Source: Oscillatoriales cyanobacterium RM2_1_1 | Lineage (GTDB): Bacteria; Cyanobacteriota; Cyanobacteriia; Cyanobacteriales; Microcoleaceae | DNA length: 64,000 nucleotides | Reading direction: 5' to 3' | NCBI GenBank assembly: GCA_012033335.1 | Contig: JAAURB010000013.1 | Span: 1 to 64,000, forward strand | In this document: positions 31,514 through 56,741 of the stretch, piece by piece | Layout of the letters: every line of letters begins with the position of its first letter | Numbering within the stretch: the stretch's first letter is position 1 | Translations under genes and position numbers: made by a program | Notes under the pieces: model-generated | Told to the model about the DNA's origin: nothing | The model's input: the letters and a program-made list of their open reading frames with translations, nothing else | The model's database searches: none

Positions 31514-34459
31514 ATGGCGAACAACCGGATCAAGCTGATGCTCCAAAGTCTAGCCCTGACAACGCTTCTCAGCACCCCATCTGGTTTGGCGATTCCCCCT
31601 GGATCCCGTCTAAGCGCTCAACAACCCCCGGCAAACTCTGCAGCCGAAACTCGCGCCCGAGCTGTACAACTGTTTGAACAAGGATTTCAGCTCTACCAAC
31701 AGGGCACTGGGGAATCTCTCCCACAAGCACTAGAGAAATTACAAGCCGCTCTTCTCCTATTTCGGGAATTGGGGGACAAACAAGGGGAAGCTCCTACTCT
31801 GCTGGGTATAGGTCGAATCTACGAAGTTCTTGGAGATCCGCAGAAAGCTCTAGAATTTTACAACCTGGCTCTGCCGCTCCATCAGACCATCGGCGATAGT
31901 ATTGGAGAAGCCGCAAATCTCAACAATATCGGTGGTCTCTACGATGCTCTAGGAGAATCGCAAAAGGCCCTGGAGTTTTACAACCAATCTTTGCGGTTAT
32001 TTCAAGCCCTGGAAGACCGCGAAGGGGAAGCCACCACCCTCAATAATCTGGGCCACATCCATAGTGGCCTAGGAGAAAAGCAGAAGGCCCTAGAATTTTA
32101 CAACCAATCTTTGCGGTTACTTCAAGCCCTGGGAGATTCCCAAGGAGAAGCCATCACTCTCAACAATATTGGCAATGTCTACAATGCCATCGGCGAAAAG
32201 CAAGATGCCCTAGAGTTTCTCTATCAATCCCTGGCCTTGAGTCGAGCGGTGGGCAATAGGACAGAAGCCGCCATCCTCAACAATATTGGTCTAGTCTACG
32301 CCTCCTTGGGAGAACGGCAAAAGGCTCTGGATTTTTACAATCAGGCCCTATCCGTGAAAAGAGCCTTGGGAGATTCCCGAGGCGAAGCCACCACCCTGAA
32401 CAATATTGGGACTCTCTACGATGCTCTAGGAGAACCGCAAAAGGCTGTGGAATTCCATGATCAAGCCTTGTCTCTCAGAAGAGCCGTGGGAGACACCCGG
32501 GGAGAAGCTACCACCCTGAATAATCTTGGCCTGGTCTACGATACTCTGGGAGAGCCCCAAAAAGCTCTGGAATTTTACAATCAGGCCCTATCCCTCAGAA
32601 GAGCCGTAGGAGATCCTAGAGGCGAAGCCACCACCCTCAATAATATTGGGACTATCTACTTCTCTCTGGAAGAACAACAGAAAGCATTAGAATTCTTCTC
32701 TCAATCTCTGCCCTTGAGTCGGGCAGTGGGCGATCGCGCCCTGGAAGCCCTCAGCCTGACCAATATTGCTGTTCTAGAAAGGAGTCGGGGCAAGCTTGAA
32801 GCGGCGCTACAAAATATTGAAGCAGCGATCGCGATTTTGGAGGATTTACGGACAGAGGTAAACAGTCCAGAGTTAAAAACTGCCTTCTTTGCCACGACCC
32901 AGAACAAGTACGAGTTTTATATTGATCTGTTGATGGAACTGCACCAGCAACCCTCAAATCAAATGCCAGATCAGGGATTTGATGCCAGGGCATTGCATAT
33001 TTCAGAGCGGTCGAAGGCGAGAACCTTGCTAGAGCTATTGCAGGAAGCCAATGCCAACATCCGTGAGGGCATTGATGCCCAACTGTTGGCCCAGGAGAAA
33101 CTACTTCAGCAAAAGTTGGATGCAGTTGAAAAACGACGATTGGAGCTGTCCAGTCAGGCAGAATCTCTGGATGAACAACAGATCAGAATCCAGCAGCAAC
33201 AGAAAACCTTAACAGAACAGTATCAAGCACTCCAATCAAAAATCCGAGCCACCAGTCCCAATTATGCGGCCCTGACTCAACCTGAACCGCTGACCTTAGC
33301 CCAGATTCAACAGCAGGTTTTGGATGAAGAGACGGTGCTATTGCAGTATGCTCTGGGCAAAAACCGTAGTTACCTGTGGGTCGTGGGGAAAAACAGCTTC
33401 AACAGCTATATCCTACCGCCTCGCCTAGAAATCGAAACTGCCATTCGTAGCTTCAGCACCGCTCTAAACAATCCCCGAGCTACAACCAGTGCTGAGTTGG
33501 CCGCAGCAAAAACCGCTGAAGACCTGAGTAATTTGATTCTGCAACCTGCGGCGGCTCAATTGGATAGAAAGCGATTGCTGGTGGTGGCCGACGGGGCTTT
33601 GCAATATATTCCCTTTGCCGCCTTGGCCCAACCTGAAAGTCCAGAATATCAGCCCTTGATCCTCAACCACGAAATTGTCAATTCGCCTTCGGCTTCTACC
33701 ATTGCGATCCTGCGTCAGGAAACCCAAAATCGCCAATCTGGAGAGAAAACCATCGCCGTTCTGGCTGACCCGGTATTTAATATGGATGACGAACGAGTAT
33801 CCACGCAGCAAACCATTGATCAGGATACCCTACCGATCGCAGCCCAACAAATCTCTCGCTCAGCACAAACGGCTGGAATTGATTGGAATCGTCTACCGGG
33901 AACCCGCCAGGAAGCCCAGGTAATCCTGGAGTTAGTGCCTGAAGCAGAACGAACTGAAGCCTTTGACTTCAATGCCAATCGCGACTGGACTCAGCAGGAT
34001 TTGACCGATTATCAGATTATCCATCTGGCAACCCACGGATTTTTTGATGCCGCGAATCCGGCCTTGTCTGGGATTGTATTATCCCTAGTGGATCAACGGG
34101 GCAACTGGCAAAACGGTTATCTGCGATTGCATGAGATTTTCAACCTGAAGCTGCCAGCGGAGCTAATTGTACTCAGTGCTTGCCAAACGGCCTTAGGGGA
34201 TAATATTCGGGGAGAGGGCTTGGTCGGAATTACCCGAGGATTCATGTATGCCGGTACGCCGCGAGTCATGTCAACCCTGTGGCAGGTAGATGATAAAGGG
34301 ACAGCAGAATTGATTTCCAGGTTCTACCATAAGTTACTGATCGAAAACTTGTCTCCGGCGGCAGCGTTGCGTTCGGCTCAAATTGAGCTGTGGCAGATTG
34401 AAAGGTGGCGATCGCCCCACTTCTGGGCCAGTTTTACCCTGCAAGGGGAATGGCAATAG
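31514..34459 (+). CDS. TPR-CHAT protein (caspase-like protease family)
   Basis: The protein (982 residues from ATG 31514) has a signal-like N-terminus, about ten 40-residue tetratricopeptide repeats (GEATTLNNIGxxYxxLGExQKALEFY type), a coiled-coil region (about residues 520-590) and a C-terminal CHAT domain (about 690-982). The CHAT catalytic dyad is present: His841 in HLATHGFF and Cys890 in LSACQTALG. The frame extends to an ATG at 31466, but 31514 is preceded by AGGA at proper spacing and gives a normal signal sequence. Such proteins are numerous in filamentous cyanobacteria, with mostly unknown roles; CHAT members can be specific proteases. Several TPR units are nearly identical at DNA level, showing recent internal duplication. 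Confidence 0.92.
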   Translation: MANNRIKLMLQSLALTTLLSTPSGLAIPPGSRLSAQQPPANSAAETRARAVQLFEQGFQLYQQGTGESLPQALEKLQAALLLFRELGDKQGEAPTLLGIGRIYEVLGDPQKALEFYNLALPLHQTIGDSIGEAANLNNIGGLYDALGESQKALEFYNQSLRLFQALEDREGEATTLNNLGHIHSGLGEKQKALEFYNQSLRLLQALGDSQGEAITLNNIGNVYNAIGEKQDALEFLYQSLALSRAVGNRTEAAILNNIGLVYASLGERQKALDFYNQALSVKRALGDSRGEATTLNNIGTLYDALGEPQKAVEFHDQALSLRRAVGDTRGEATTLNNLGLVYDTLGEPQKALEFYNQALSLRRAVGDPRGEATTLNNIGTIYFSLEEQQKALEFFSQSLPLSRAVGDRALEALSLTNIAVLERSRGKLEAALQNIEAAIAILEDLRTEVNSPELKTAFFATTQNKYEFYIDLLMELHQQPSNQMPDQGFDARALHISERSKARTLLELLQEANANIREGIDAQLLAQEKLLQQKLDAVEKRRLELSSQAESLDEQQIRIQQQQKTLTEQYQALQSKIRATSPNYAALTQPEPLTLAQIQQQVLDEETVLLQYALGKNRSYLWVVGKNSFNSYILPPRLEIETAIRSFSTALNNPRATTSAELAAAKTAEDLSNLILQPAAAQLDRKRLLVVADGALQYIPFAALAQPESPEYQPLILNHEIVNSPSASTIAILRQETQNRQSGEKTIAVLADPVFNMDDERVSTQQTIDQDTLPIAAQQISRSAQTAGIDWNRLPGTRQEAQVILELVPEAERTEAFDFNANRDWTQQDLTDYQIIHLATHGFFDAANPALSGIVLSLVDQRGNWQNGYLRLHEIFNLKLPAELIVLSACQTALGDNIRGEGLVGITRGFMYAGTPRVMSTLWQVDDKGTAELISRFYHKLLIENLSPAAALRSAQIELWQIERWRSPHFWASFTLQGEWQ

Positions 34460-46831: not shown

Positions 46832-49096
46832 TCAGGGAGTCGAACGAATCGGGATAAACCCTGCCCCTTGAATGAGTTGTTGACCTTGATTGGTCAAGAG
46901 CAAATCAGCATAGGCTTCTCCAACTCGCTGATCCACTGAGTTATCCTGTTTGATCACGACAAAGATTCGCCGGGTAATCGGGTATTGACCTTCTAAAAAA
47001 GCTTCCCCATTGAGTTGATTGCGCTTTTGGGGACATTCTCCGGGGGGAACCAGAGGTTCTTGATAGGGAGCAACCAAGGGACTAGTAGAATTGGCCTGGA
47101 TCGCAAGGGGCTTAATCTGGCACTGAGAAACCACTTCTGAAGCCGTTGCGTAGTAGATTCCCCCCAGGTTTTGGCTGAGTTGGCTGATAGCCGTGGTGGT
47201 GGTGGAAATGGTTTTTACACCAGGGTCAAATTTAGCATTTCCCAGGATGTTTTCTTTGAAAAACTCGGTGGTTCCACTCTCAATCGGGCGGGAATAGGGA
47301 GTGATTTTTAAGTCGGGGCCCCCGACTTGATTCCAGTTGGTAATGGCTCCGGTGTAGATTTTTTGTAGTTGCTCAATGGTCAATCCTTTGATGTCTAAAT
47401 TGGGATGAACGACAATGGCGATCGCATCAATTGCCACTGGAACTGACTTTAATAAAAAGCCCTGATTGGCCGCAGCCTGAATCTCCTCAGGCAGTAACGA
47501 CCGGGAAGATTCGGCAAAAGAAATCTGATTTTTAATCAACATCTCAATCCCACTGCCGGAACCGGGAGCTTGATTGGAGGACTGTTGATAGGTGAGGCGA
47601 TAGTTGGGATGAACCTGTTCGATTTGAGGATTGACCCGTTCTCGGATTGGAGCCCAGGTCGTGCTACCCCCATGCAAAACATTGCCACTGGGCACATCAA
47701 TACCTGCAAAACATTCATCGCTTTTTGCCCCTTTTGCTGTTGCTGGAACAGCCTGGGTCGGGCAGTTTTCGGGGTTACTTGCAACTGAGTTGGTTTGATC
47801 CTGCAACGTTTGATAAATTTGCCAGCCCAAACCTGCAACTAAAATTCCAACCAGAATCGGGAGATATTTGGGGAGAAATTGAGATAGAGATTGAAATTTA
47901 GATTTGGTAGCCTTGGGGTCAGTAGGCTGAGATAGAAGTTTAGGTTCAATCAGTTTTTCCCAGAGTAACGGATCACTCAGGGCTGATTCTCGGATACACA
48001 ATCTGGGGAGCCACATGACACCGGGATATTGTTTGGGATTGTCAAAGCTTTCCAGGGCAGTTCTGGCTTGATGCATGGCTGCAAACAACGATTTGTTGCG
48101 GATAAATTCATCAAAAAAGCTTTTGATAAACTTGACTGCTACTTCATCTGGAATGGGTTCTTGCATGACAATACATCGGGGCAAATTCAGTTCTGCCAAT
48201 TGATGGGCTAACCCTAAACCATCGCAGGAATTAAACAGTGCCAGTTGTAGTCCTCGATTAATCGCAACCCTGAAGTTTCGCTTGAATTCATCAATGGATA
48301 ATTCATCATCGTCCCGCAACCCAATCCAGCCAATTTTGCCTTCTGTATCGCTGTCAGTATCGCTGCGACTATGGCCCGAAAACACAAAAATATGATATCC
48401 CCGTTCATCGCGCAACGCTTCGGATAATTGCTCTCGGGTCGGTTGAGCCAGATACTTGACTTCGGCCCCTTTGGCTTCCAAATTTCTCACCACTTCTACA
48501 TCAAGATGGGTATTCAACCCGCCGTTACCCCCTTCTACGAGCAAGATTCTGGCTTTTGGGGCTTTGATAATGGGCTTGATTGGGTCAGAGCCTTTGCCTC
48601 GAATTCGCAGGGCAATTTCAGTTTGGGGAAACCGGGATTCTAAGAGTTCCCATTCCTGCCAGGGGTAGAGACAGAGGTGCAAGTTTTCATCATCTAAAAG
48701 TAGTCTGATTTCTTCATCTGGCCCTTGTGAGCGGCTGAGCAACAGAATTAACTCTTCTCGCAGGCGTTGCCAGCGACTATCACTGCCAGAATTTAACCAT
48801 TCATTCAGGCTTTGTTTGACCTGATTTCGAGCCTGAATGCTGGAATAACGGGTGACTACGGGCTGATCTGATTGGGGTTTGATCACAATTTCTTTGGGCT
48901 GGAGGCGGCTCATTCTCCGCACTGGCTCTAAATCACAATAATCCCCTCTCCAGGACTGAAATGATAAATTTAACTGAGGGGGTAATTCTGGTAGATTGGC
49001 TTTTTTAGACTCGAAGTGTTCGGCCCCAATGGCAGCCAAACTCAGTCGATAACCTTGTTCCGAATTACCATCAATTTCAAGTTTTGCAATTAGCAT
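46832..49096 (-). CDS. CHAT protease - membrane segment - PstS-like binding domain (receptor 3)
   Basis: Of 754 residues, about 1-180 form a conserved N-terminal region (ending in LYPWQEWELL), 181-375 a CHAT caspase-like domain with His242 (VFSGHSRSD) and Cys291 (LFNSCDGLG). One membrane segment follows (about 411-428, YLPILVGILVAGLGWQIY), then a phosphate-binding-protein-like domain (about 465-750: VLHGGSTTWAPIRERV, QQSSNQAPGSGSGIEML, IEQLQKIYTGAITNW). The order predicts a cytoplasmic protease and a periplasmic ligand domain. It is the last gene of the sigma-DUF1822-CHAT cluster, 15 bp after its paralogue. Ligand and substrate are unknown. Confidence 0.9.
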   Translation of the reverse strand: MLIAKLEIDGNSEQGYRLSLAAIGAEHFESKKANLPELPPQLNLSFQSWRGDYCDLEPVRRMSRLQPKEIVIKPQSDQPVVTRYSSIQARNQVKQSLNEWLNSGSDSRWQRLREELILLLSRSQGPDEEIRLLLDDENLHLCLYPWQEWELLESRFPQTEIALRIRGKGSDPIKPIIKAPKARILLVEGGNGGLNTHLDVEVVRNLEAKGAEVKYLAQPTREQLSEALRDERGYHIFVFSGHSRSDTDSDTEGKIGWIGLRDDDELSIDEFKRNFRVAINRGLQLALFNSCDGLGLAHQLAELNLPRCIVMQEPIPDEVAVKFIKSFFDEFIRNKSLFAAMHQARTALESFDNPKQYPGVMWLPRLCIRESALSDPLLWEKLIEPKLLSQPTDPKATKSKFQSLSQFLPKYLPILVGILVAGLGWQIYQTLQDQTNSVASNPENCPTQAVPATAKGAKSDECFAGIDVPSGNVLHGGSTTWAPIRERVNPQIEQVHPNYRLTYQQSSNQAPGSGSGIEMLIKNQISFAESSRSLLPEEIQAAANQGFLLKSVPVAIDAIAIVVHPNLDIKGLTIEQLQKIYTGAITNWNQVGGPDLKITPYSRPIESGTTEFFKENILGNAKFDPGVKTISTTTTAISQLSQNLGGIYYATASEVVSQCQIKPLAIQANSTSPLVAPYQEPLVPPGECPQKRNQLNGEAFLEGQYPITRRIFVVIKQDNSVDQRVGEAYADLLLTNQGQQLIQGAGFIPIRSTP

Positions 49097-49111
49097 ATTT
49101 AGGGTGATGTA

Positions 49112-51499
49112 TTAAGGAATGATTGATCTGAGTAACAGTTCAGGAATCTGAATAGTTTTAATAGAATTGAAACGAGAATTCTCCGCCGCTGGGCTCCGAA
49201 TCGGGGTAAATCCTGACTCCTGAATTAACCGTTGGCCTTCATCGGTGAGCAGAAGTTCTGTATAGATTTCCCCTGCCTTTTGATCTAGTTGACTATCCTG
49301 TTTGATAATCACAAATAGCCGCCGGGTCAGGGGATATTGCCCGATTCTAAAGGCTTGATGATTGATCTGATTGGGTTGCTCCAGACAGGTAGTTGGAGAG
49401 GCCATGGTTCCCAGGTAGGGGGTGACAAACTCTTGACCCGCCTGAAAGCTCAGAGGCAACGGTTTCACCAAACACTGACCCACCAGATTCGTAGCGGTTG
49501 CCATATAAATCCCCCCGCGACTCTGGCGATCGCGGCCAATTTTATTAATGGCTTCCGTTGGGGTATTGATCCGGATCAAATTGGGGCTGAAGGTTTCGCC
49601 GGGGGCAAATAAATTCTGTTGCATAAACATCGGAGAACCGCTCCCTTTCGGAGACGCATAGAGCACAATCGGCAGATCCGGGCCCCCAACCTCCCCCCAG
49701 TTGGTGATTTTGCCGGTGTAGATATTTGTAAGCTGTGCCAGGGTCAGCCCTTTCACCGCCAAGTCAGGGTGAACCACTACCACAATGCCATCAATAGCCA
49801 CCGGAATTTGCTTGAGCTGGAATCCCCGCTGCTCGGCCATTTTGTATTCCTGATCCTCCAGGGGGCGGGAGGATTGGGCAAAGGACAGTTGCCCATTCAA
49901 TACCATCTGAATCCCCATGCCTGAACCGGGGGGTTGGGTTGGATGGGAAATATAGGTCAGCTTGAAATCGGGATGGGCCTGCCGAATCGCCTGATCCACG
50001 GTCTTACGAATGGCAGCCCAGGCGGTACTGCCGCTGTAGCGCCAGACTCCAGGTAGAGTTTCTACGGATTTCAGGGTGGTGACTCCAGAGTCAGGGATCG
50101 ACTCAACAAATCGGGCTGGGGAGCGATCGCACCGGGTCGGATTCCACTGGCAAATCAACCGATCAAGTCCCAAACCAATCCCCAGACCAAGTATCCCGAT
50201 CAGCAGCAATCCCAACAGGGGATTGTACCAGTTGGCTCTCAGGCTGAAGACCTGGGCTAAAGCCTGACCCTGGCTTGATGAACGCAACGGCAGAGGCTGC
50301 ATCGGTATCTGAACAGACATTCCAGATTGAGTCGAGGGCGGAGTGGCGAATGGAATAGCGGATTGATCCGGAAGCCGGGGTTGGGGGGGGAGAGGCGGAA
50401 TCCGAGGCTTGGGCCTGGAATTGATCCCACTCCAGGTTACGGGAACCGTCCCCAGTTTCAAACATAAAATCGGCAACCATATAACCCCGGGATAGCTGGA
50501 TTTAAAGGGTTCAAGTTGTCGCCTGGCCCGACGGACTGCCGTGAGCAACGAGTAATTTTGAGTAAATTCTTTGAAGAAATATTTGAAGAAATCCACGGCG
50601 ACAGAATCAGGCACGGGTTCTCGCATCACAATGCATTGAGACAGGTTGAGTTCTGCCAGTTGATAAGCCAGTCCCAGGCCATCACAGGAATTAAAAATGG
50701 CCAGTTGTAACCCATTGCCAATAACTTCTTTTAAAGCATCCCGGAAGTCTTCAATGCTCAACCTTTCCTGACCATTCAGATCAATCCAGCCAATTTTTCC
50801 TGTTTGATCACTACTGCTATGGCCGGTATAAATCAAAATATGATATCCCCGATCATCCCAAAGGGCTTCACAGAGGGTCTGGCGACTGGGTTGAATCAAA
50901 GCCACCACCTCTGCCCCCGCCGTTTCCAACTTCTGAATCACCTGGAGATCGGCGGTCGTATTAATCCCGTCACTCTGACCCACAATCACTAAAATTCGGG
51001 CATGGCGGCTTTTGGGGTGGGGGGTTGCCTGGGTAGCTGAGGTGGTCTTGATCGCGCTCAAAACCACCTCAGCTTTGGGATAGTATTGCTCGAACAGGTT
51101 CCATTCCTGCCAGGGTAGGTGACGCAGTTCGGATTCCTTGGCATCTAGAATAATCGAAGTATCCTGGTGCTGAAACCGGGCCGAGATCTGCACCAGACAG
51201 TCTCGAATGGTTTGCCACCCGGAACTATTGGCATTGAGCCAGTGATTCAAATGGGTTTTGATGTCTTGAACGGCAGTTAACGAACAGCCAAACTCAATCT
51301 TCTGGGGAGTCAGGCGAAAATCGGCTTGCTGACGCACCGCTGATAGATCCCGATAGGCACATTGCCAGGAATCAAAGGAGATCTGCAGTGCTTTCGGAGG
51401 CAGGGGTAAAAACCCCTCAATTTCCTTATTTTGATAGTAGAGGGTGACTAGAAATCCTGTATTTAGAGAACGCCTAAGTTTGAGCCGGATGGTTTCCAT
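49112..51499 (-). CDS. CHAT protease - membrane segment - PstS-like binding domain (receptor 2)
   Basis: The 795-residue protein has the same plan as the downstream paralogue: N-terminal region with HLPWQEWNLF, CHAT domain with His227 (IYTGHSSSD) and Cys272 (IFNSCDGLG), a Pro-rich linker (about 365-405), one membrane segment (about 425-448, LLGLLLIGILGLGIGLGL) and a PstS-like domain (about 480-765: YSGSTAWAAIRKTV, PGSGMGIQMVLNGQLSF, LAQLTNIYTGKITNWGEVGG). Sequence identity to receptor 3 is clear across all parts, so the pair arose by duplication. ATG start; 198 bp separate it from the upstream CHAT gene. Confidence 0.9.
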   Translation of the reverse strand: METIRLKLRRSLNTGFLVTLYYQNKEIEGFLPLPPKALQISFDSWQCAYRDLSAVRQQADFRLTPQKIEFGCSLTAVQDIKTHLNHWLNANSSGWQTIRDCLVQISARFQHQDTSIILDAKESELRHLPWQEWNLFEQYYPKAEVVLSAIKTTSATQATPHPKSRHARILVIVGQSDGINTTADLQVIQKLETAGAEVVALIQPSRQTLCEALWDDRGYHILIYTGHSSSDQTGKIGWIDLNGQERLSIEDFRDALKEVIGNGLQLAIFNSCDGLGLAYQLAELNLSQCIVMREPVPDSVAVDFFKYFFKEFTQNYSLLTAVRRARRQLEPFKSSYPGVIWLPILCLKLGTVPVTWSGINSRPKPRIPPLPPQPRLPDQSAIPFATPPSTQSGMSVQIPMQPLPLRSSSQGQALAQVFSLRANWYNPLLGLLLIGILGLGIGLGLDRLICQWNPTRCDRSPARFVESIPDSGVTTLKSVETLPGVWRYSGSTAWAAIRKTVDQAIRQAHPDFKLTYISHPTQPPGSGMGIQMVLNGQLSFAQSSRPLEDQEYKMAEQRGFQLKQIPVAIDGIVVVVHPDLAVKGLTLAQLTNIYTGKITNWGEVGGPDLPIVLYASPKGSGSPMFMQQNLFAPGETFSPNLIRINTPTEAINKIGRDRQSRGGIYMATATNLVGQCLVKPLPLSFQAGQEFVTPYLGTMASPTTCLEQPNQINHQAFRIGQYPLTRRLFVIIKQDSQLDQKAGEIYTELLLTDEGQRLIQESGFTPIRSPAAENSRFNSIKTIQIPELLLRSIIP

Positions 51500-51697
51500 A
51501 CAAGATAGATGATAAGCATAGTAGAAGGTAGGTTTATAAGCCCGGAGTCAGTCAAAATCGACATTGGTCATCTTAGGGTTCCGGAAGCTTTTTCTGATCA
51601 ACTTCCATTTCTAGTTTACTATGAAAATTCCTAGGAAAACTGATGTTTTTCCAAGCATTTTAAAAAAAATCTAACTTCCTAAAACAAACTTTACAGT

Positions 51698-52654
51698 TTA
51701 CTTTTCTAATAATTCAAAGCTGTATCCATCGGCTGAATTTTCGGTTGAATCGGGCCGGACCTGGACTAATATCCCTAGCTGATGATCAGCAGTTAATTTG
51801 CGATCACCAGAAAGTTCAAATTCTACAGTTCCGGTAGCCCCTAGGGCTAAGAAATCAGGGCTCGAAAGTATGCGCTGTACCTGTCGCCGACTACAACTTT
51901 TTCCACATTGATTCAGAGCATTAATTAAAGCTTGGGCCGCATCATAAGTTGTAGCAGTACGCCAATTCACTGGGGCTTGCCAAAAAACTTGAGCTTGATT
52001 TGCAAATTCAGAATCCAGAGTACGATGCCAGGGAATAGAAATCACCAAGTCCCCCTTAATAGATTCCTTTCCGGCATCTTTGAGCACTCTCACGTTATAA
52101 ACAGCATCCCCCCCTAACAGTTTGATATCGCCTTGGTTGTAGGTGATAATCCGAATAGCTGCTGAGAGCGTTTGATCCGTAGCTGGAACCAGTAAAAAAA
52201 CTTCTGCACCATTTTTTTGAGCCATTTTAACGCATTCCGCAGCACTAAAATCTCCCCGACTTAAATCACATCGATAAACAAATGGAGTTGGTAAACTTCT
52301 CTCAAATTCTTGAACCAAAGATTCGCTATAAGAATTACCAGGAACATTAGCAACTGCAACATTTGAAAACTCCCCAGAATGGATTTTTAAATAATTGTAG
52401 AGATTTTCTGCAGCAAATTTGTCACTCGGAGCAGTCCGAAATACAAAGGAATTAAAGTTGGATAGCTGTACCGAGGTGCTAGTGGGAGAGATTGCAACGA
52501 GGCCATTTTTTCCATACAAATCCCCAGCTCTTAGGCTCATATCGCTGGAAAAATGACCCACAACCCCAAGAATACTAGAATCTTCGATAAAAGCTTGGGC
52601 GATTTTCTCAGCCGTTGCCGGAGTATATTGATCATCTCCAATGACAACCTGCAA
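51698..52654 (-). CDS. CHAT-TPR-PBP1 receptor, C-terminal fragment (leucine-binding-protein-type domain)
   Basis: This frame encodes most of a type 1 periplasmic binding fold of the branched-chain amino-acid (Leu/Ile/Val) ABC receptor family: LQVVIGDDQYTPATAEKIAQ, ILGVVGHFSSDMSLRAGDLY, LVAISPTSTSVQLSN, IKLLGGDAVYNVRVLKDAG, ATTYDAAQALINALNQC. The nominal ATG is internal; in the same frame the coding region extends upstream through SGGNGGTF to about 52695, where one base has been lost from the parent gene. It is the ligand domain of the CHAT protein encoded at 52537-54375 (intact span 51698-54375). Confidence 0.88.
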   Translation of the reverse strand: MQVVIGDDQYTPATAEKIAQAFIEDSSILGVVGHFSSDMSLRAGDLYGKNGLVAISPTSTSVQLSNFNSFVFRTAPSDKFAAENLYNYLKIHSGEFSNVAVANVPGNSYSESLVQEFERSLPTPFVYRCDLSRGDFSAAECVKMAQKNGAEVFLLVPATDQTLSAAIRIITYNQGDIKLLGGDAVYNVRVLKDAGKESIKGDLVISIPWHRTLDSEFANQAQVFWQAPVNWRTATTYDAAQALINALNQCGKSCSRRQVQRILSSPDFLALGATGTVEFELSGDRKLTADHQLGILVQVRPDSTENSADGYSFELLEK

Positions 52655-54375
52655 AAATGTACCTCCATTTCCTCCAGAACAAGGAAGTGGGGTTTGAAAT
52701 TTTCAATGGTTTGAATAAGTTCAGGGAGATTACAATTGAATCTACTTTGAGCTTGAGCGACTCCTCGCAATACTTCTTGGGCTGCATTAACCTCATCGGT
52801 AATTGGCACGCTGAGAGCAATTTTTTGCAACCTACCGATATTCATTGAAAATTTTTGCTCGGCGATCGCATTGTTTAAATAAATCCAGCTCTCCGGATCA
52901 TTTCTATTCTCTAATAAAGCCTGTCTAAACTGTTCTATGGCCTTACCATAATCTCTGGCCAAATAGGCTTGTATACCGGCTTCTTTGGCGGGGTTGGTAT
53001 TCTCTGAAATCAGCAATCTTTCTCCCTGACTGATCAGTTGATTAATCGTCTGGCTTGATTCTGGAGAAGAAATTGTAGTTGGCGCGATCAGAGACTTCGA
53101 CCGCAATCCCCAATAGGCTAAACCCGACAAAGCCAGCGTTAAAATCCCGAATCCCAAAACCTTTAGCAATCTAAACGAGGACTTCTGCAGGATAAAATCC
53201 TTCCAGAATAGGGGCTGGGCTGCCACGGCATCCTGCATACAGAGCATTGGTAGCCAGGTGGCCCCAGGATAGGGACTATCGTAATGGCAGTCTGCTAGTT
53301 GTTCTCTCGCCTGATGAAACGCAGGGACAAGTCCCCGCTGTTTTCCGGCAAACTCCTGGAAAAAGTATTTCAAGAAACTGGCGGCAACTTCGTTGGGCAC
53401 CACTTCCCGCATGACAATACTGCGGGGTAAGCCAATTTTTGCCAGTTGATTCGCCAGTCCAATCCCATCACAGGAATTAAAAATGGCCACCTGCAAACCC
53501 TGGGAAACTGCCCTGCTAAAGGCCCGAATAAAGGCATCACCCTGAATTTCCAGGGAACGATTTGGGCTGAGTTCCAACCAACCAATCCCACCGTGATCAT
53601 CACTGCGGCTATGACCCGAAAACACAAACAGGTGATATCCCAGTTCGGATCGGAGCGCCTCGGATAGTTCATCGTAATCCGGTTGCTCCAGAAGTCTTAC
53701 CTCGGCCCCCTGCTGTTTTAGAAGTTGAACCACCTGTCGATCTGGAGTCAGATCAATCCCTTCATTGTCCCCAAACACCACCAGAATTCTGGGCTTGGGC
53801 CAGGGCTGAGGGGATTTCAGGCCGCTATTATTCCCCTCAACTTGTAGAATTACCTCAGCCTGGGGAAAGTGCTGCTTGAACAGGTTCCACTCCTGCCACG
53901 GCAACCGTCGCAGCACTGGGGAAAGAGGTTGAAGCTGACCATTTTCATCTTGATCTTCGATTTCCACCAGTAAATGTACCGATTCTCCCAGTTGACCTGA
54001 CGCTTTGATCAGGCTTTCTCGAATGGGTTGCCAAGTCGGATCATTACCCTCTAGCCAGAGATTCAGAATGGCTTTAATTTGAGTTGAATTAGCTTTTGCC
54101 TGATTGTTGGCATTAGCACAGGAACCATGAACTACGCCCTTCGTTTTGAGGCGGACTTGCGGAATATCGTAGTAAACCTGTCGCCAATTGCTCAAAACAG
54201 TTTCCAGTTCCGGGGGGATCCGGGGCAAAAAACCACTGCGAGAATTGAAACTGCCGTCATTGGTCATCAATCGAGCCCGAAACTGAGATTTATTACTGTT
54301 CCACAGCAGGACGAGTTTGATTATGGTTGGGGATGTATTGGATGGTGAGAGGGATGAACGAGATAAGATTGCCAT
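52537..54375 (-). CDS. CHAT-TPR-PBP1 receptor, N-terminal fragment (receptor 1), gene frameshifted
   Basis: Numbering from ATG 54375, the fragment contains an N-terminal region (RLPWQEWNLF), a CHAT domain with His255 (VFSGHSRSD) and Cys302 (IFNSCDGIG), one membrane segment (about 405-425), a short TPR-like stretch (YLARDYGKAIEQFRQALLEN) and the first strand of a type 1 binding domain (KIALSVPITDEVNAAQEVLR). After TIENF the frame turns to nonsense, and the true continuation lies in another frame (51698-52654). Adding one base in the run near 52689-52699 joins them. ATG 54375 lies 5 bp after the DUF1822 stop; a longer frame opens at 54414 inside that gene. Confidence 0.88.
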   Translation of the reverse strand: MAILSRSSLSPSNTSPTIIKLVLLWNSNKSQFRARLMTNDGSFNSRSGFLPRIPPELETVLSNWRQVYYDIPQVRLKTKGVVHGSCANANNQAKANSTQIKAILNLWLEGNDPTWQPIRESLIKASGQLGESVHLLVEIEDQDENGQLQPLSPVLRRLPWQEWNLFKQHFPQAEVILQVEGNNSGLKSPQPWPKPRILVVFGDNEGIDLTPDRQVVQLLKQQGAEVRLLEQPDYDELSEALRSELGYHLFVFSGHSRSDDHGGIGWLELSPNRSLEIQGDAFIRAFSRAVSQGLQVAIFNSCDGIGLANQLAKIGLPRSIVMREVVPNEVAASFLKYFFQEFAGKQRGLVPAFHQAREQLADCHYDSPYPGATWLPMLCMQDAVAAQPLFWKDFILQKSSFRLLKVLGFGILTLALSGLAYWGLRSKSLIAPTTISSPESSQTINQLISQGERLLISENTNPAKEAGIQAYLARDYGKAIEQFRQALLENRNDPESWIYLNNAIAEQKFSMNIGRLQKIALSVPITDEVNAAQEVLRGVAQAQSRFNCNLPELIQTIENFKPHFLVLEEMEVHFCRLSLEMINILRQRLRKSPKLLSKILVFLGLWVIFPAI

Positions 54376-54379
54376 GACC

Positions 54380-55354
54380 TCAAACCTCAAATTGCTCAGT
54401 GATTGTTTGGTCACCCAGATTCATCTGAACGCTAAATTTCTCTTGGGGCTTACAGCTAAACTCCAACTGCATCCAACTGTCAGCCTCCCGGGATGTTGCG
54501 GTCATTTGGGAGGTTCCAGTCTCATCAATGATGGCAATTTGCAGGCCAGAGGGCAGGTGTTCTATATTGCCATCGGGGCGGCAAACTCGCAGTCTAATAT
54601 CAATCTCCTCAAAAGCCCGATCAATCACGCTCAAAGTCAGTATCAGATTTTGGTCATTCCTTACCAGAGTATCGGTGGAGGTCTCATCTGTAATCCTAGA
54701 GGCGGATGCTAGCGTGACTAATTTGCCTCGGGTAATACTGCGTTCAGCGGTAGCATCACGAGTCAATGCCGTCCGCACCGGAGAGAATGGGCCAGGGTTC
54801 AGTTGATTTCCCAGAGATTGCAGGGACTCTGGCGGTTGCCAATCCTTCAGGATATGCCAGAGTCTGGCCCAGCGTTTGTGCCAGTCAATAGTATCAATTA
54901 GTTCCTCTAAGGAAGATAAGTTTCCCAACGGCATGGATCTGGCCGTTTGGGAGAGCTTTCTAGCCGGAACAAACCCCAAAAGCTCCGCTTGATTTAAATC
55001 TTCACTGAATTGCACCGCCACATAGCCAATTCGATCTTCCCCCAATTCATCGATCACTAAGATTTCATTTCCAGACAAAACGGGGCAACATTCCAGCTTA
55101 CCAATCTCGGGTAAGACCAAATCCGCAACATTAAAGGCGGCCCGCAACCCTGAATTCCAGCTATCTGCCTGATCTAAATTGGTTTTAATCTCTAACCATT
55201 TTAAATAGGAATGAACGGTGTAGACTGCCAGGGTATTCAGATAAACCTGCTTGCCTTTTTGAGGGTTGACCTGTTCCGCTGCAAACCGCTTTGCAAAGGT
55301 ATGGGCGTGCTGGTCTAATAAAACAACTAGGGCCGGGGACTGGGTTGAGCTCAT
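54380..55354 (-). CDS. DUF1822 family protein
   Basis: The 324-residue protein matches DUF1822: LVVLLDQHAHTFAKRFAAEQ, VYLNTLAVYTVHSYLKWLEI, LECCPVLSGNEILVIDELGE and RIGYVAVQFSEDLNQAELLGFVP. A C-terminal beta-rich part (about 215-320) follows. No enzyme motif or membrane segment is seen, so it should be cytoplasmic. DUF1822 genes are known as a cyanobacterial family beside sigma-like and CHAT genes, with no established function. In this cluster it stands between a sigma-like factor and CHAT proteases, so it may be an anti-sigma factor or the protease substrate. ATG 55354 is used; an upstream in-frame start at 55387 has no better support. Confidence 0.87.
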   Translation of the reverse strand: MSSTQSPALVVLLDQHAHTFAKRFAAEQVNPQKGKQVYLNTLAVYTVHSYLKWLEIKTNLDQADSWNSGLRAAFNVADLVLPEIGKLECCPVLSGNEILVIDELGEDRIGYVAVQFSEDLNQAELLGFVPARKLSQTARSMPLGNLSSLEELIDTIDWHKRWARLWHILKDWQPPESLQSLGNQLNPGPFSPVRTALTRDATAERSITRGKLVTLASASRITDETSTDTLVRNDQNLILTLSVIDRAFEEIDIRLRVCRPDGNIEHLPSGLQIAIIDETGTSQMTATSREADSWMQLEFSCKPQEKFSVQMNLGDQTITEQFEV

Positions 55355-55415
55355 GGTTAAACATCTCCAACAGTTAACTAGGGTCAATGATCAAAAAACG
55401 TTACTTAAAAAAACG

Positions 55416-56105
55416 TTACTCAAGACGGTGCACAATCTCTTGCAGCAGGGGCAAGCATTTTTTCTTCCAATGGCTATAAAGGGTCTGATCACTCACCTCA
55501 AACTCCCGGGCAATGTCTCGGATCCGCTGGGGAGGATCCCGGAGCAACAGCCGAATGGCTAACACTTGAGCACTGCAATCAGGATGATTTCTCAGGTGGC
55601 AAGCTCTCAATTGGTGCTCTGGATCTCGCTCAATGTAGTCCCAGATGGTCTCTCCTAAACGATGGCGGTTTTCTTGTTGTTCCCGTTCCACCAGATCCTC
55701 GAGATCGTTCAAAAATCGACTGGGCAATAGATCACCCAAGGTGAGGGAATCGGTGGGTTCCCCTGCAATTGACTTATCCAGGGAAATCTCCCGCTGATAC
55801 TTAGAATCAGGGAAAAACAAATCCCGAACTCGCCAGTAAAGATAACCGTTGATCCAGACGATAAAGCCCTTCACAATTGAGTCAGAATGAGTGTTGAGCT
55901 TATCGACATCAAACTGGTCAATATTTTTGAATGCCCATTCCCAAGTGAGGTTGAGGGCCTCAGGATAATCTTTGTGCTGGGAGCGATAAAGATTGGGATG
56001 CCGCTGAATCATTATGATCAGTCGGGTAAAGCATTTCCGACGGTGAGAACTGGCAGGTTCGGACTGAGATAATTCATGGATCAGTTTTAATAGTTGTTCA
56101 TCCAT
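55416..56105 (-). CDS. Sigma-70-like (ECF-like) regulatory factor
   Basis: The 229-residue product has a helical region 2-like N-terminal half (LTWEWAFKNIDQFDVDKLN, FIVWINGYLYWRVRDLFFP) and a C-terminal helix-turn-helix resembling region 4 (RIRDIAREFEVSDQTLYSHW). No receiver, membrane or metal-binding domain is fused. The ATG at 56105 has AAGGGGAA upstream; the frame is open to 56249 but that part looks non-coding. It is first in the cluster, 61 bp ahead of DUF1822, and presumably directs RNA polymerase to a small regulon, perhaps including its own cluster. Divergence from classic ECF factors is considerable, so binding to core polymerase needs proof. Confidence 0.82.
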   Translation of the reverse strand: MDEQLLKLIHELSQSEPASSHRRKCFTRLIIMIQRHPNLYRSQHKDYPEALNLTWEWAFKNIDQFDVDKLNTHSDSIVKGFIVWINGYLYWRVRDLFFPDSKYQREISLDKSIAGEPTDSLTLGDLLPSRFLNDLEDLVEREQQENRHRLGETIWDYIERDPEHQLRACHLRNHPDCSAQVLAIRLLLRDPPQRIRDIAREFEVSDQTLYSHWKKKCLPLLQEIVHRLE

Positions 56106-56741
56106 ACAGTTCCCCTTCCTGGAATACTCCGAGCATTGGTATTGAGACAAACTCACAATAGTTTGCCTTGAGTTTAACGGAAGCAGGGGAGAACTGCAGG
56201 GTTCTGGATTGGGGAACAGACGAGTCATAGAAAGGCATTTCCAATGCACTACTGTCCCTATCAGTGAGTATCGAAAATTTATGAAACGAATGCATTCTGA
56301 AGCTGGCCCCCATGGATGGAGGACGCATCATTACAAACTGCCATTCTTTACAGAAACTTTATAAGACCGGGTTTGAACTGACTGTTAGATCTGATTAAGA
56401 TAAACTCCAGGTCATTTCTGGCTACTTAAAGTGCTGAAATAAGTGCCAGAATAAGCGTTAAAATAAGTGTGGTTTGTGGGTCAATTCCAGAGACTTATCC
56501 AGATTCAGGTGTAGCTATAGCTGTTGACTGGTAAGGATCACCTACGGTGCATAGCTTAAGAGATTATTCATGGTGACATTCTAAATGGCATTCTAGACAA
56601 CGTTCTGAACCGTGAATGCTATTGGGAAGACTATAGGAATTTTTCAAGGGCTCTCTCGCCCCGGAAAATTGTTTTGATGTTTGGCCAATTGACGGGCTGA
56701 CTGATGCGGTTTGTCTGAGAGTTTGTTATGGGTTATGAACG
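56106..56741. other. Divergent intergenic region with two tandem arrays
   Basis: This 636-bp spacer separates the sigma-like gene and wecB/tagA-like gene. A 12-bp unit repeats three times at 56431-56466 (GTGCTGAAATAA, GTGCCAGAATAA, GCGTTAAAATAA), and another 12-bp unit three times at 56575-56610 (GACATTCTAAAT, GGCATTCTAGAC, AACGTTCTGAAC). The promoter controlling the CHAT cluster should lie near 56110-56400. No gene is seen. Confidence 0.6.

Follow-up and report, generated by a model that had tools for sequence, protein, structure and literature searches.

A 64,000-nucleotide stretch of the genome of Oscillatoriales cyanobacterium RM2_1_1 (positions 1 to 64,000 of contig JAAURB010000013.1, assembly GCA_012033335.1; hereafter the window) carries genes for an extracytoplasmic function (ECF)-like sigma factor, a DUF1822 protein and three receptor-proteases, termed c1, c2 and c3, in which a caspase-like CHAT domain, a membrane segment and a periplasmic binding domain follow each other in one chain. 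Our best model of this system, to which we give an even chance of being right, is that the ligand state of the binding domain gates the CHAT protease, which then cuts DUF1822 and frees the sigma factor to switch on its own operon. Sequence and comparison support the gene linkage, the catalytic dyad, the domain content, the sigma fold, the phosphate pocket motif of c3, and the conservation of both a promoter-like motif and an arginine in the DUF1822 linker. Beyond this, we infer the direction of gating, the cleavage of DUF1822, its anti-sigma role and the recognition of the motif by this sigma factor. An earlier note on this DNA, made from the sequence alone, knew of no described function for the architecture; this view has to be revised, as the underlying chassis of EACC2-type caspase, ECF sigma factor and DUF1822 was published as a prediction by Kaur et al. 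2021 (PMC8195603).

On the minus strand, the genes run from 56105 to 46832 in the order sigma factor, DUF1822, c1, c2 and c3 (Table 1), separated by about 61, 4, 198 and 15 bases. Because the gaps are short, they likely form an operon, with a second start possible before c2. The five adjoining genes of the earlier note are all consecutive and their domain content was recovered, including the single hydrophobic segment between the CHAT and binding domains that had been claimed for each protease. However, the third protease of that description, c1, is not a single reading frame but is split by one frameshift, and therefore only two of the three proteases, c2 and c3, are intact.

CHAT (PF12770) was matched in all three proteases with 43-51 bits (cut-off 24). 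The dyad His242/Cys291 (c3 numbering) is intact in c1, c2 and c3, as noted before, and is kept in 72/72 aligned relatives. A CHAT profile found no informative relative among the sequences of solved structures. Basic residues are commoner on the CHAT side of the membrane segment in 32/47 proteins and show the opposite distribution in 3/47; the positive-inside bias is present in c3 and reversed in c2 (1 vs 4 basic residues). Given this charge bias, a CHAT domain inside and a binding domain outside the cell are likely in general, and less sure for c2. The arrangement proposed in the earlier note, with the membrane between the CHAT and binding domains, thus agrees with the usual pattern, with c2 as the exception.

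Matches to the constant region of the CHAT family were found in 335/391 sampled genomes of the order, and the window proteases fall into one well-supported tree branch of 43 rows with nearly exclusively PstS or LivJ sensors. Among distinct CHAT-PstS/LivJ genes, after removal of duplicates and exclusion of genes at contig ends, 31/43 have a sigma and a DUF1822 gene within 6 kb upstream on the same strand. This order was encountered in Okeania, Lyngbya, Gomphosphaeria, Nostoc, Amazonocrinis, Cyanosarcina, Moorena, Mastigocoleus, Pegethrix, Pantanalinema, Rivularia, Calothrix and others, so that the conserved linkage in distant genera for which the earlier note had called is indeed present in cyanobacteria. 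Judged by these counts, the gene linkage is more than chance. A sigma relative of the close type is encoded in 8/8 sampled genomes, which were chosen mostly for a CHAT-PstS gene without a local sigma gene.

The PBP_like_2/PstS domain was matched in c3 with 1e-33 (NCBIfam PstS_2 1e-50) and in c2 with 3e-28, and these PstS-like domains are close to solved phosphate-binding proteins. The c1 domain matches Peripla_BP_6/ANF_receptor (Pfam, 9e-16); it is LivJ-like and resembles amino-acid-binding proteins. In c3 and most of its orthologues the phosphate motif is complete (GSTTW, SSR and R-P-I-E-S-G-T), and the contact residues are kept among relatives at Ser478 (40/40), Arg532 of SSR (40/40), Arg603 (35/40), Gly608 (40/40) and Thr609 (36/40). 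The first-line sensor is therefore expected to bind phosphate. The pocket of c2 reads Y-A-S-P-K-G-S-G-S, with A-S-P-K-G-S-G-S where others have S-R-P-I-E-S-G-T, so that the arginine and the threonine are gone; another genome (L071) holds a second copy with a degenerate motif at the same site. Some extra PstS-like copies, as far as their pocket residues tell, have probably changed or lost the predicted phosphate binding. For c3, and for c1 provided that its frameshift is read through, phosphate or an amino acid, as named in the earlier note, is consequently a plausible solute, which does not hold for c2. A PstS protein in the proper sense is a secreted or lipoprotein partner of an ATP-binding cassette transporter, whereas the domain here stands C-terminal to CHAT and a membrane segment, and no Pst permease was seen adjoining the operon among the neighbouring genes listed.

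The same chassis bears PstS, LivJ, CHASE2 and soluble forms of sensor. Since LivJ sensors appear in at least two separate tree branches, and within the window the LivJ-bearing c1 is a near tree neighbour of the PstS-bearing c3, the sensor has been exchanged on a constant chassis. In Okeania, membrane-anchored LivJ proteins with tetratricopeptide repeats (TPR) and without CHAT lie between two receptor-proteases (L057 6539-8014, L053 11301-12884), followed in L053 by short LivJ fragments in tandem; these proteins are possibly co-receptors or decoys.

The DUF1822 protein named in the earlier note is identified with certainty (PF08852, E 6e-57). Its predicted structure (mean predicted local distance difference test, pLDDT, 86) comprises a helical/beta N-module, a disordered linker (residues 196-212) and an immunoglobulin-like (Ig-like) beta-sandwich C-domain. 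The fold matches of the C-domain are generic Ig-like (Z 7 or less), and we therefore read no specific function, such as that of a protease inhibitor, from them. Without the N-module, the C-domain occurs beside sister proteases behind EAD4-TRADD-N, TRADD-N, PIN-like and helix-turn-helix (HTH)-like N-termini, and in one genome (L106) it is fused to the protease itself. All scanned partners of sister proteases (10/10) reach the DUF1822 model, one of them being a full DUF1822 protein, and the C-domain lies close upstream of 73/84 non-PstS/LivJ proteases (contig-end genes excluded). Because of these occurrences, the Ig-like domain and its preceding linker can be regarded as the constant partner of EACC2-type proteases. 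The earlier note had given DUF1822 no role; since it accompanies these proteases almost constantly, it probably connects protease and sigma factor.

Of 91 ungapped relatives, 90 have Arg and 1 has Lys in one linker column of DUF1822, whose neighbouring positions vary. The pattern hydrophobic-Arg-Ser was counted in 53/100 linkers vs 9.3 +/- 2.8 in shuffles, where the relatedness of the sequences inflates the counts; most TRADD-N/HTH-type partners, which have nothing but the Ig-like domain in common with DUF1822, contain it as well. Considering the near-invariant basic residue, the disordered linker and the adjoining gene for a clan-CD-type protease, this Arg is best read as a candidate cut site.

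The gene upstream of DUF1822 had been annotated as a sigma-70-like factor in the earlier note. Pfam does not recognise it, with no Sigma70 r2 or r4 match to the window protein, and among its relatives at E<=0.01 an r4_2 match was obtained in 2/30 and an r2 match in 1/30. A profile run against PDB sequences yielded weak HTH and unrelated matches only. As the sequence profiles failed, a fold comparison was needed, and the predicted fold does agree with the annotation. The model (mean pLDDT 89) has a helix-turn-helix at the C-terminus, and all 50 structural matches listed are sigma factors, the best being SigW region 2 (Z 9.4, 2.7 A over 83 residues); region 2 of SigW, SigE and SigK aligned with Z 8-9 and 2.3-3.1 A over 79-87 residues. 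For a helical protein, Z values of this size are moderate by themselves, and it is the uniform match list that leads us to assign an ECF-like sigma factor. In the model, sigma regions 2 and 4 are present without region 3, which is the ECF arrangement at fold level only. The start ATG 56105 is preferred over GTG 56249 because the GTG is located at or before the predicted transcript start.

Before the sigma gene of many such operons, we found the promoter-like motif TTCATAAA-N15-TGATA-N6-TAG. The window copy keeps both ends and the total length, with the TGATA box one base early (N14/N7 vs N15/N6). A matrix built from sites before sigma genes only was used to search 4.1 megabases (Mb) on both strands and resulted in 61 sites with a score >=16, vs 3 in the reversed sequence. 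They precede genes for the sigma factor (17), DUF1822 (19), a binding-protein/vWA lipoprotein (7), a small membrane protein (4) and CHAT (2), with 10 sites lacking an assigned gene and 2 before others. The motif was found in 0/23 partners from sigma-less systems. This co-occurrence suggests that the sigma factor of the operon recognises the motif. Three extra pattern matches in the own genome had no matching neighbour genes, and only full-matrix sites near the loci are claimed here, given that the genome-wide search with the short form remained close to background.

Genes other than those of the operon also carry the motif. In Cyanosarcina radialis, it precedes a membrane gene of 160 aa overlapping a PHO4 phosphate transporter gene beside a CHAT-PstS operon (L074 11502-13334). 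A lipoprotein with SBP_bac_8 and vWA domains, with at least one sigma-type motif upstream, lies beside the operon in L065 (5122-6816), L057 (854-2551) and L064 (11961-13661); lipoproteins of this type are located by the operon in Okeania, Lyngbya, Gomphosphaeria and Hydrocoleum. In two Pleurocapsa-group genomes, a motif-marked operon near CHAT-PstS genes (L083 15983-18675, L084 13727-16340) encodes a DUF2207-type membrane protein and an MbnB/TglH/ChrH enzyme, a modifier of ribosomally synthesized and post-translationally modified peptides.

Taken together, the proposed mechanism would begin with a PstS- or LivJ-type domain in the periplasm that reports solute occupancy on a single membrane segment, the candidate solutes being phosphate for c3 and, provided that c1 is read through, probably an amino acid for this protease. 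The solute state outside would change the activity of CHAT in the cytoplasm, and activated CHAT would cut the DUF1822 linker at or next to the near-invariant Arg-(Ser), between the N-module and the Ig-like C-domain. DUF1822 would be the partner of the sigma factor, most likely its inhibitor, and cutting would release the sigma factor. Once freed, it would transcribe from TTCATAAA-N15-TGATA promoters, including its own operon, as a positive feedback, and adjacent effector genes. The flow proposed in the earlier note, with the solute outside, the protease inside and the sigma factor executing, fits this picture. A bolder and more tentative extension is that occupancy of a periplasmic domain directly gates a caspase-like protease and that the cut at the DUF1822 Arg frees an ECF sigma factor for a self-reinforcing promoter class. 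This would be a one-chain alternative to two-component systems and regulated intramembrane proteolysis, in which Arg, linker and Ig-like domain may serve as a universal handle that releases sigma factors, TRADD-N proteins and other effectors.

Several observations weigh against the model. The motif precedes only 17/57 sigma genes and 19/84 DUF1822 genes, its short form lies close to background across most of ten genomes searched in full, and the window copy, with its spacer one base shorter, scores low in the fixed-spacing matrix. There are gaps in the alignment of the linker, and the Arg is missing from some DUF1822-C proteins that carry inserted repeats. A DUF1822 profile found no match among solved structures, and hence no solved anti-sigma factor (Csx30 was not compared directly). 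Within the window, c1 is frameshifted, and c2 lacks the pocket Arg and departs from the positive-inside pattern.

Among tested mechanisms, that of Csx29 comes closest; this CHAT protease cuts Csx30, the inhibitor of an ECF-like sigma factor (PMC10028731). In this system, too, the CHAT protease, the cleaved sigma inhibitor and the ECF-like sigma factor (CASP-sigma) are encoded in one locus and a positive autoregulation was proposed. However, its trigger is target RNA via Cas7-11 and Csx29 is a soluble TPR-CHAT protein; no Cas7-11 was noticed here among the neighbouring genes listed. In Anabaena, the CHAT protease HetF can cleave the negative regulator PatU3 (PMC12288457), which is a cyanobacterial case of a CHAT-type protease acting on a negative regulator. 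HetF belongs to the divisome and has no binding-protein sensor, and the window proteins reach 25-40 bits in the HetF equivalog model, far below its cut-off of 1200. By analogy, Csx29-Csx30 and HetF-PatU3 show that the logic assumed here is possible (PMC10028731, PMC12288457). In DegS-RseA-SigE and RsiW-SigW, the protease and the membrane anti-sigma factor are separate, whereas here sensor and protease form one chain and the presumed inhibitor is apparently soluble.

As regards the architecture itself, Kaur et al. 2021 describe, in the available part, caspase proteins with variable C-termini beside an ECF sigma factor and DUF1822, and propose signalling from protease to sigma factor (PMC8195603). 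The window operon shares with these EACC2 systems the caspase-like domain with its dyad, the variable C-terminal sensor and the adjoining sigma and DUF1822 genes. A constant N-terminal region may be a further likeness: the window proteases have a conserved N-terminal region in common with the sister proteases that adjoin TRADD-N proteins. The same part of that paper names CHASE2 and 'several small-molecule-binding domains' and not periplasmic-binding-protein sensors, and describes neither a promoter nor a cleavage site (PMC8195603). It calls DUF1822 a TPR protein; this label is contradicted by the predicted helical/beta module and the Ig-like C-domain, which is common to the TRADD-N partners. 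For cyanobacterial metacaspases, the accessible text of Asplund-Samuelsson 2012 lists a protein with an ANF_receptor domain and argues for a receptor-outside/protease-inside topology of a metacaspase-CHASE2 protein (PMC3501461). These likewise combine an N-terminal caspase-like domain with an extracellular receptor domain; they are single proteins, for which that text does not describe a linkage to sigma factor and DUF1822 or list a PstS-type sensor (PMC3501461). Compared with these publications, four things are new here: the proposed gating by binding proteins in a branch with conserved linkage and an unbroken phosphate motif, the promoter-like motif, the C-domain of DUF1822 as a shared partner module, and the candidate linker Arg.

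An alternative that we hold to be unlikely is that the operon belongs to a branch of EACC2 conflict systems, acting against invaders or by suicide. Here, a disturbance of the envelope or an invader-related solute would be sensed, CHAT would activate itself by cutting itself, and the sigma factor and DUF1822 would run a programme of defence or death in place of a nutrient response. The chassis is the same as in the systems of Kaur et al. 2021, for which the available text proposes autopeptidase activation (PMC8195603). In addition, the partners of the protease in sister systems are of the EAD4-TRADD-N or PIN-like kind, close paralogues have exchanged their sensor domains, and an Okeania assembly holds a NACHT ATPase fused to a sigma remnant and DUF1822. 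On the other hand, PADLOC reported no defence family above a marginal SAVED_CHAT match (E 0.007), and an NCBIfam scan of the window proteins returned no specific system. The phosphate motif is kept where mere variation would erode it, and the neighbours marked by the promoter-like motif include the binding-protein/vWA lipoprotein and, in one genome, the PHO4 transporter operon, not toxins.

Rather unlikely, in our view, is a role of DUF1822 as a positive adaptor or scaffold, in which case CHAT would cut itself or the sigma factor and the linker Arg would dock instead of being cut. Autoproteolysis is what the 2021 paper proposes in its available part (PMC8195603), the profile comparison with solved structures gave no anti-sigma homology of DUF1822, and the Ig-like C-domain is a common interaction fold. 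However, an Arg in a predicted disordered segment with variable neighbours resembles a cleavage site more than a docking surface, and the same arrangement of helix, linker and Ig-like domain follows unrelated N-modules (HTH, TRADD-N, PIN-like).

A decay of the operon in this genome, with c1 as a pseudogene and c2 as a non-binding decoy, has to be weighed against the details of c1. Its CHAT and membrane part (52537-54414) and its LivJ-like domain (51698-52654) sit in different frames, with one shift at about 52684-52702 as located by tblastn with a full-length Lyngbya aestuarii relative that spans both halves. This single frameshift, the long tree branch of c1 and the loss of pocket residues in c2 point to decay, and stops or splits occur in some relatives too. 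Against this, both parts of c1 can still be aligned along their length (41% and 54% identity), the dyads are intact, an error of the draft assembly is possible, and c3 and the head of the operon are intact. We hold such a decay to be improbable and give a purely pseudogene reading a low rank. That the genes are linked by descent only, with the binding domain as a tethered scavenger and CHAT serving another partner, is very improbable: the free-standing LivJ proteins of Okeania and 12 CHAT-PstS genes without a local sigma gene would suit it, but across diverse genera most receptor genes stand directly behind a sigma gene and a DUF1822 gene in this succession, and a close sigma relative is present in every sampled genome.

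EACC2-type caspase systems are numerous in cyanobacteria, and the literature that we found gives neither a trigger nor a substrate for them. With a candidate ligand (phosphate), a candidate substrate with a presumed cut residue and a candidate promoter for the read-out, the chain from ligand to transcript becomes testable in one reconstituted system. This would show whether bacterial relatives of caspases act in the signalling of nutrients besides death or defence. The locus suggests a little-studied way, present in many cyanobacteria, in which bacteria convert an outside chemical signal into gene expression by protein cutting.

Table 1. Features of the receptor-protease operon and its upstream region (window positions)
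Feature	Position	Strand	Remark
ECF-like sigma factor	55416..56105	(-)	229 aa from ATG 56105
DUF1822 protein	54380..55354	(-)	Open reading frame (ORF) opens at TTG 55387; relatives align from ATG 55354; proposed tether or anti-sigma factor
Linker Arg codon R205 (ORF numbering) of DUF1822	54773..54775	(-)	Candidate CHAT cleavage site
c1: CHAT, membrane segment, short TPR-like linker, LivJ/Peripla_BP_6-like domain	51698..54375	(-)	Frameshifted
c2: CHAT, membrane segment, PstS-like domain with degenerate phosphate motif	49112..51499	(-)	
c3: CHAT, membrane segment, PstS-like domain with complete phosphate motif; His242/Cys291	46832..49096	(-)	
Promoter-like motif TTCATAAA-N14-TGATA-N7-TAG upstream of the operon	56249..56285	(-)	TTCATAAA...TGATA at 56259-56285

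The shift in c1 coincides with A-AAT-TTC, which is compatible with a -1 slippery heptamer (window 52655-52702). A -1 shift at this site would give IENFQTPLPC, as in relatives, and a hairpin follows within a few bases 3' of it (-14.7 kcal/mol, z -2.0). Given that the relatives are in frame without such a shift, a plain indel or an assembly error is likelier than a programmed shift.

Among the loci with DUF1822, the Okeania fusion mentioned above (Okeania sp. SIO3I5, L063 5386-8478, identical to L114) joins the NACHT-type ATPase to a sigma remnant and a complete DUF1822 directly before a CHAT-PstS gene; it may reflect the recombination of a new effector or an assembly join. In a gammaproteobacterial assembly (L180, a Thiomargarita metagenome-assembled genome), an EACC2-type CHAT gene with a DUF1822-C partner was observed, by transfer or contamination. 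On contig C35 of the own genome, a CHAT-CHASE2 receptor-protease gene directly follows a gene for a KaiB-domain histidine kinase, which is SasA-like (L014 6340-10163). Finally, the window contains on its plus strand a separate, stronger CHAT domain (33509-34450) in a TPR-type protein of 1015 aa.

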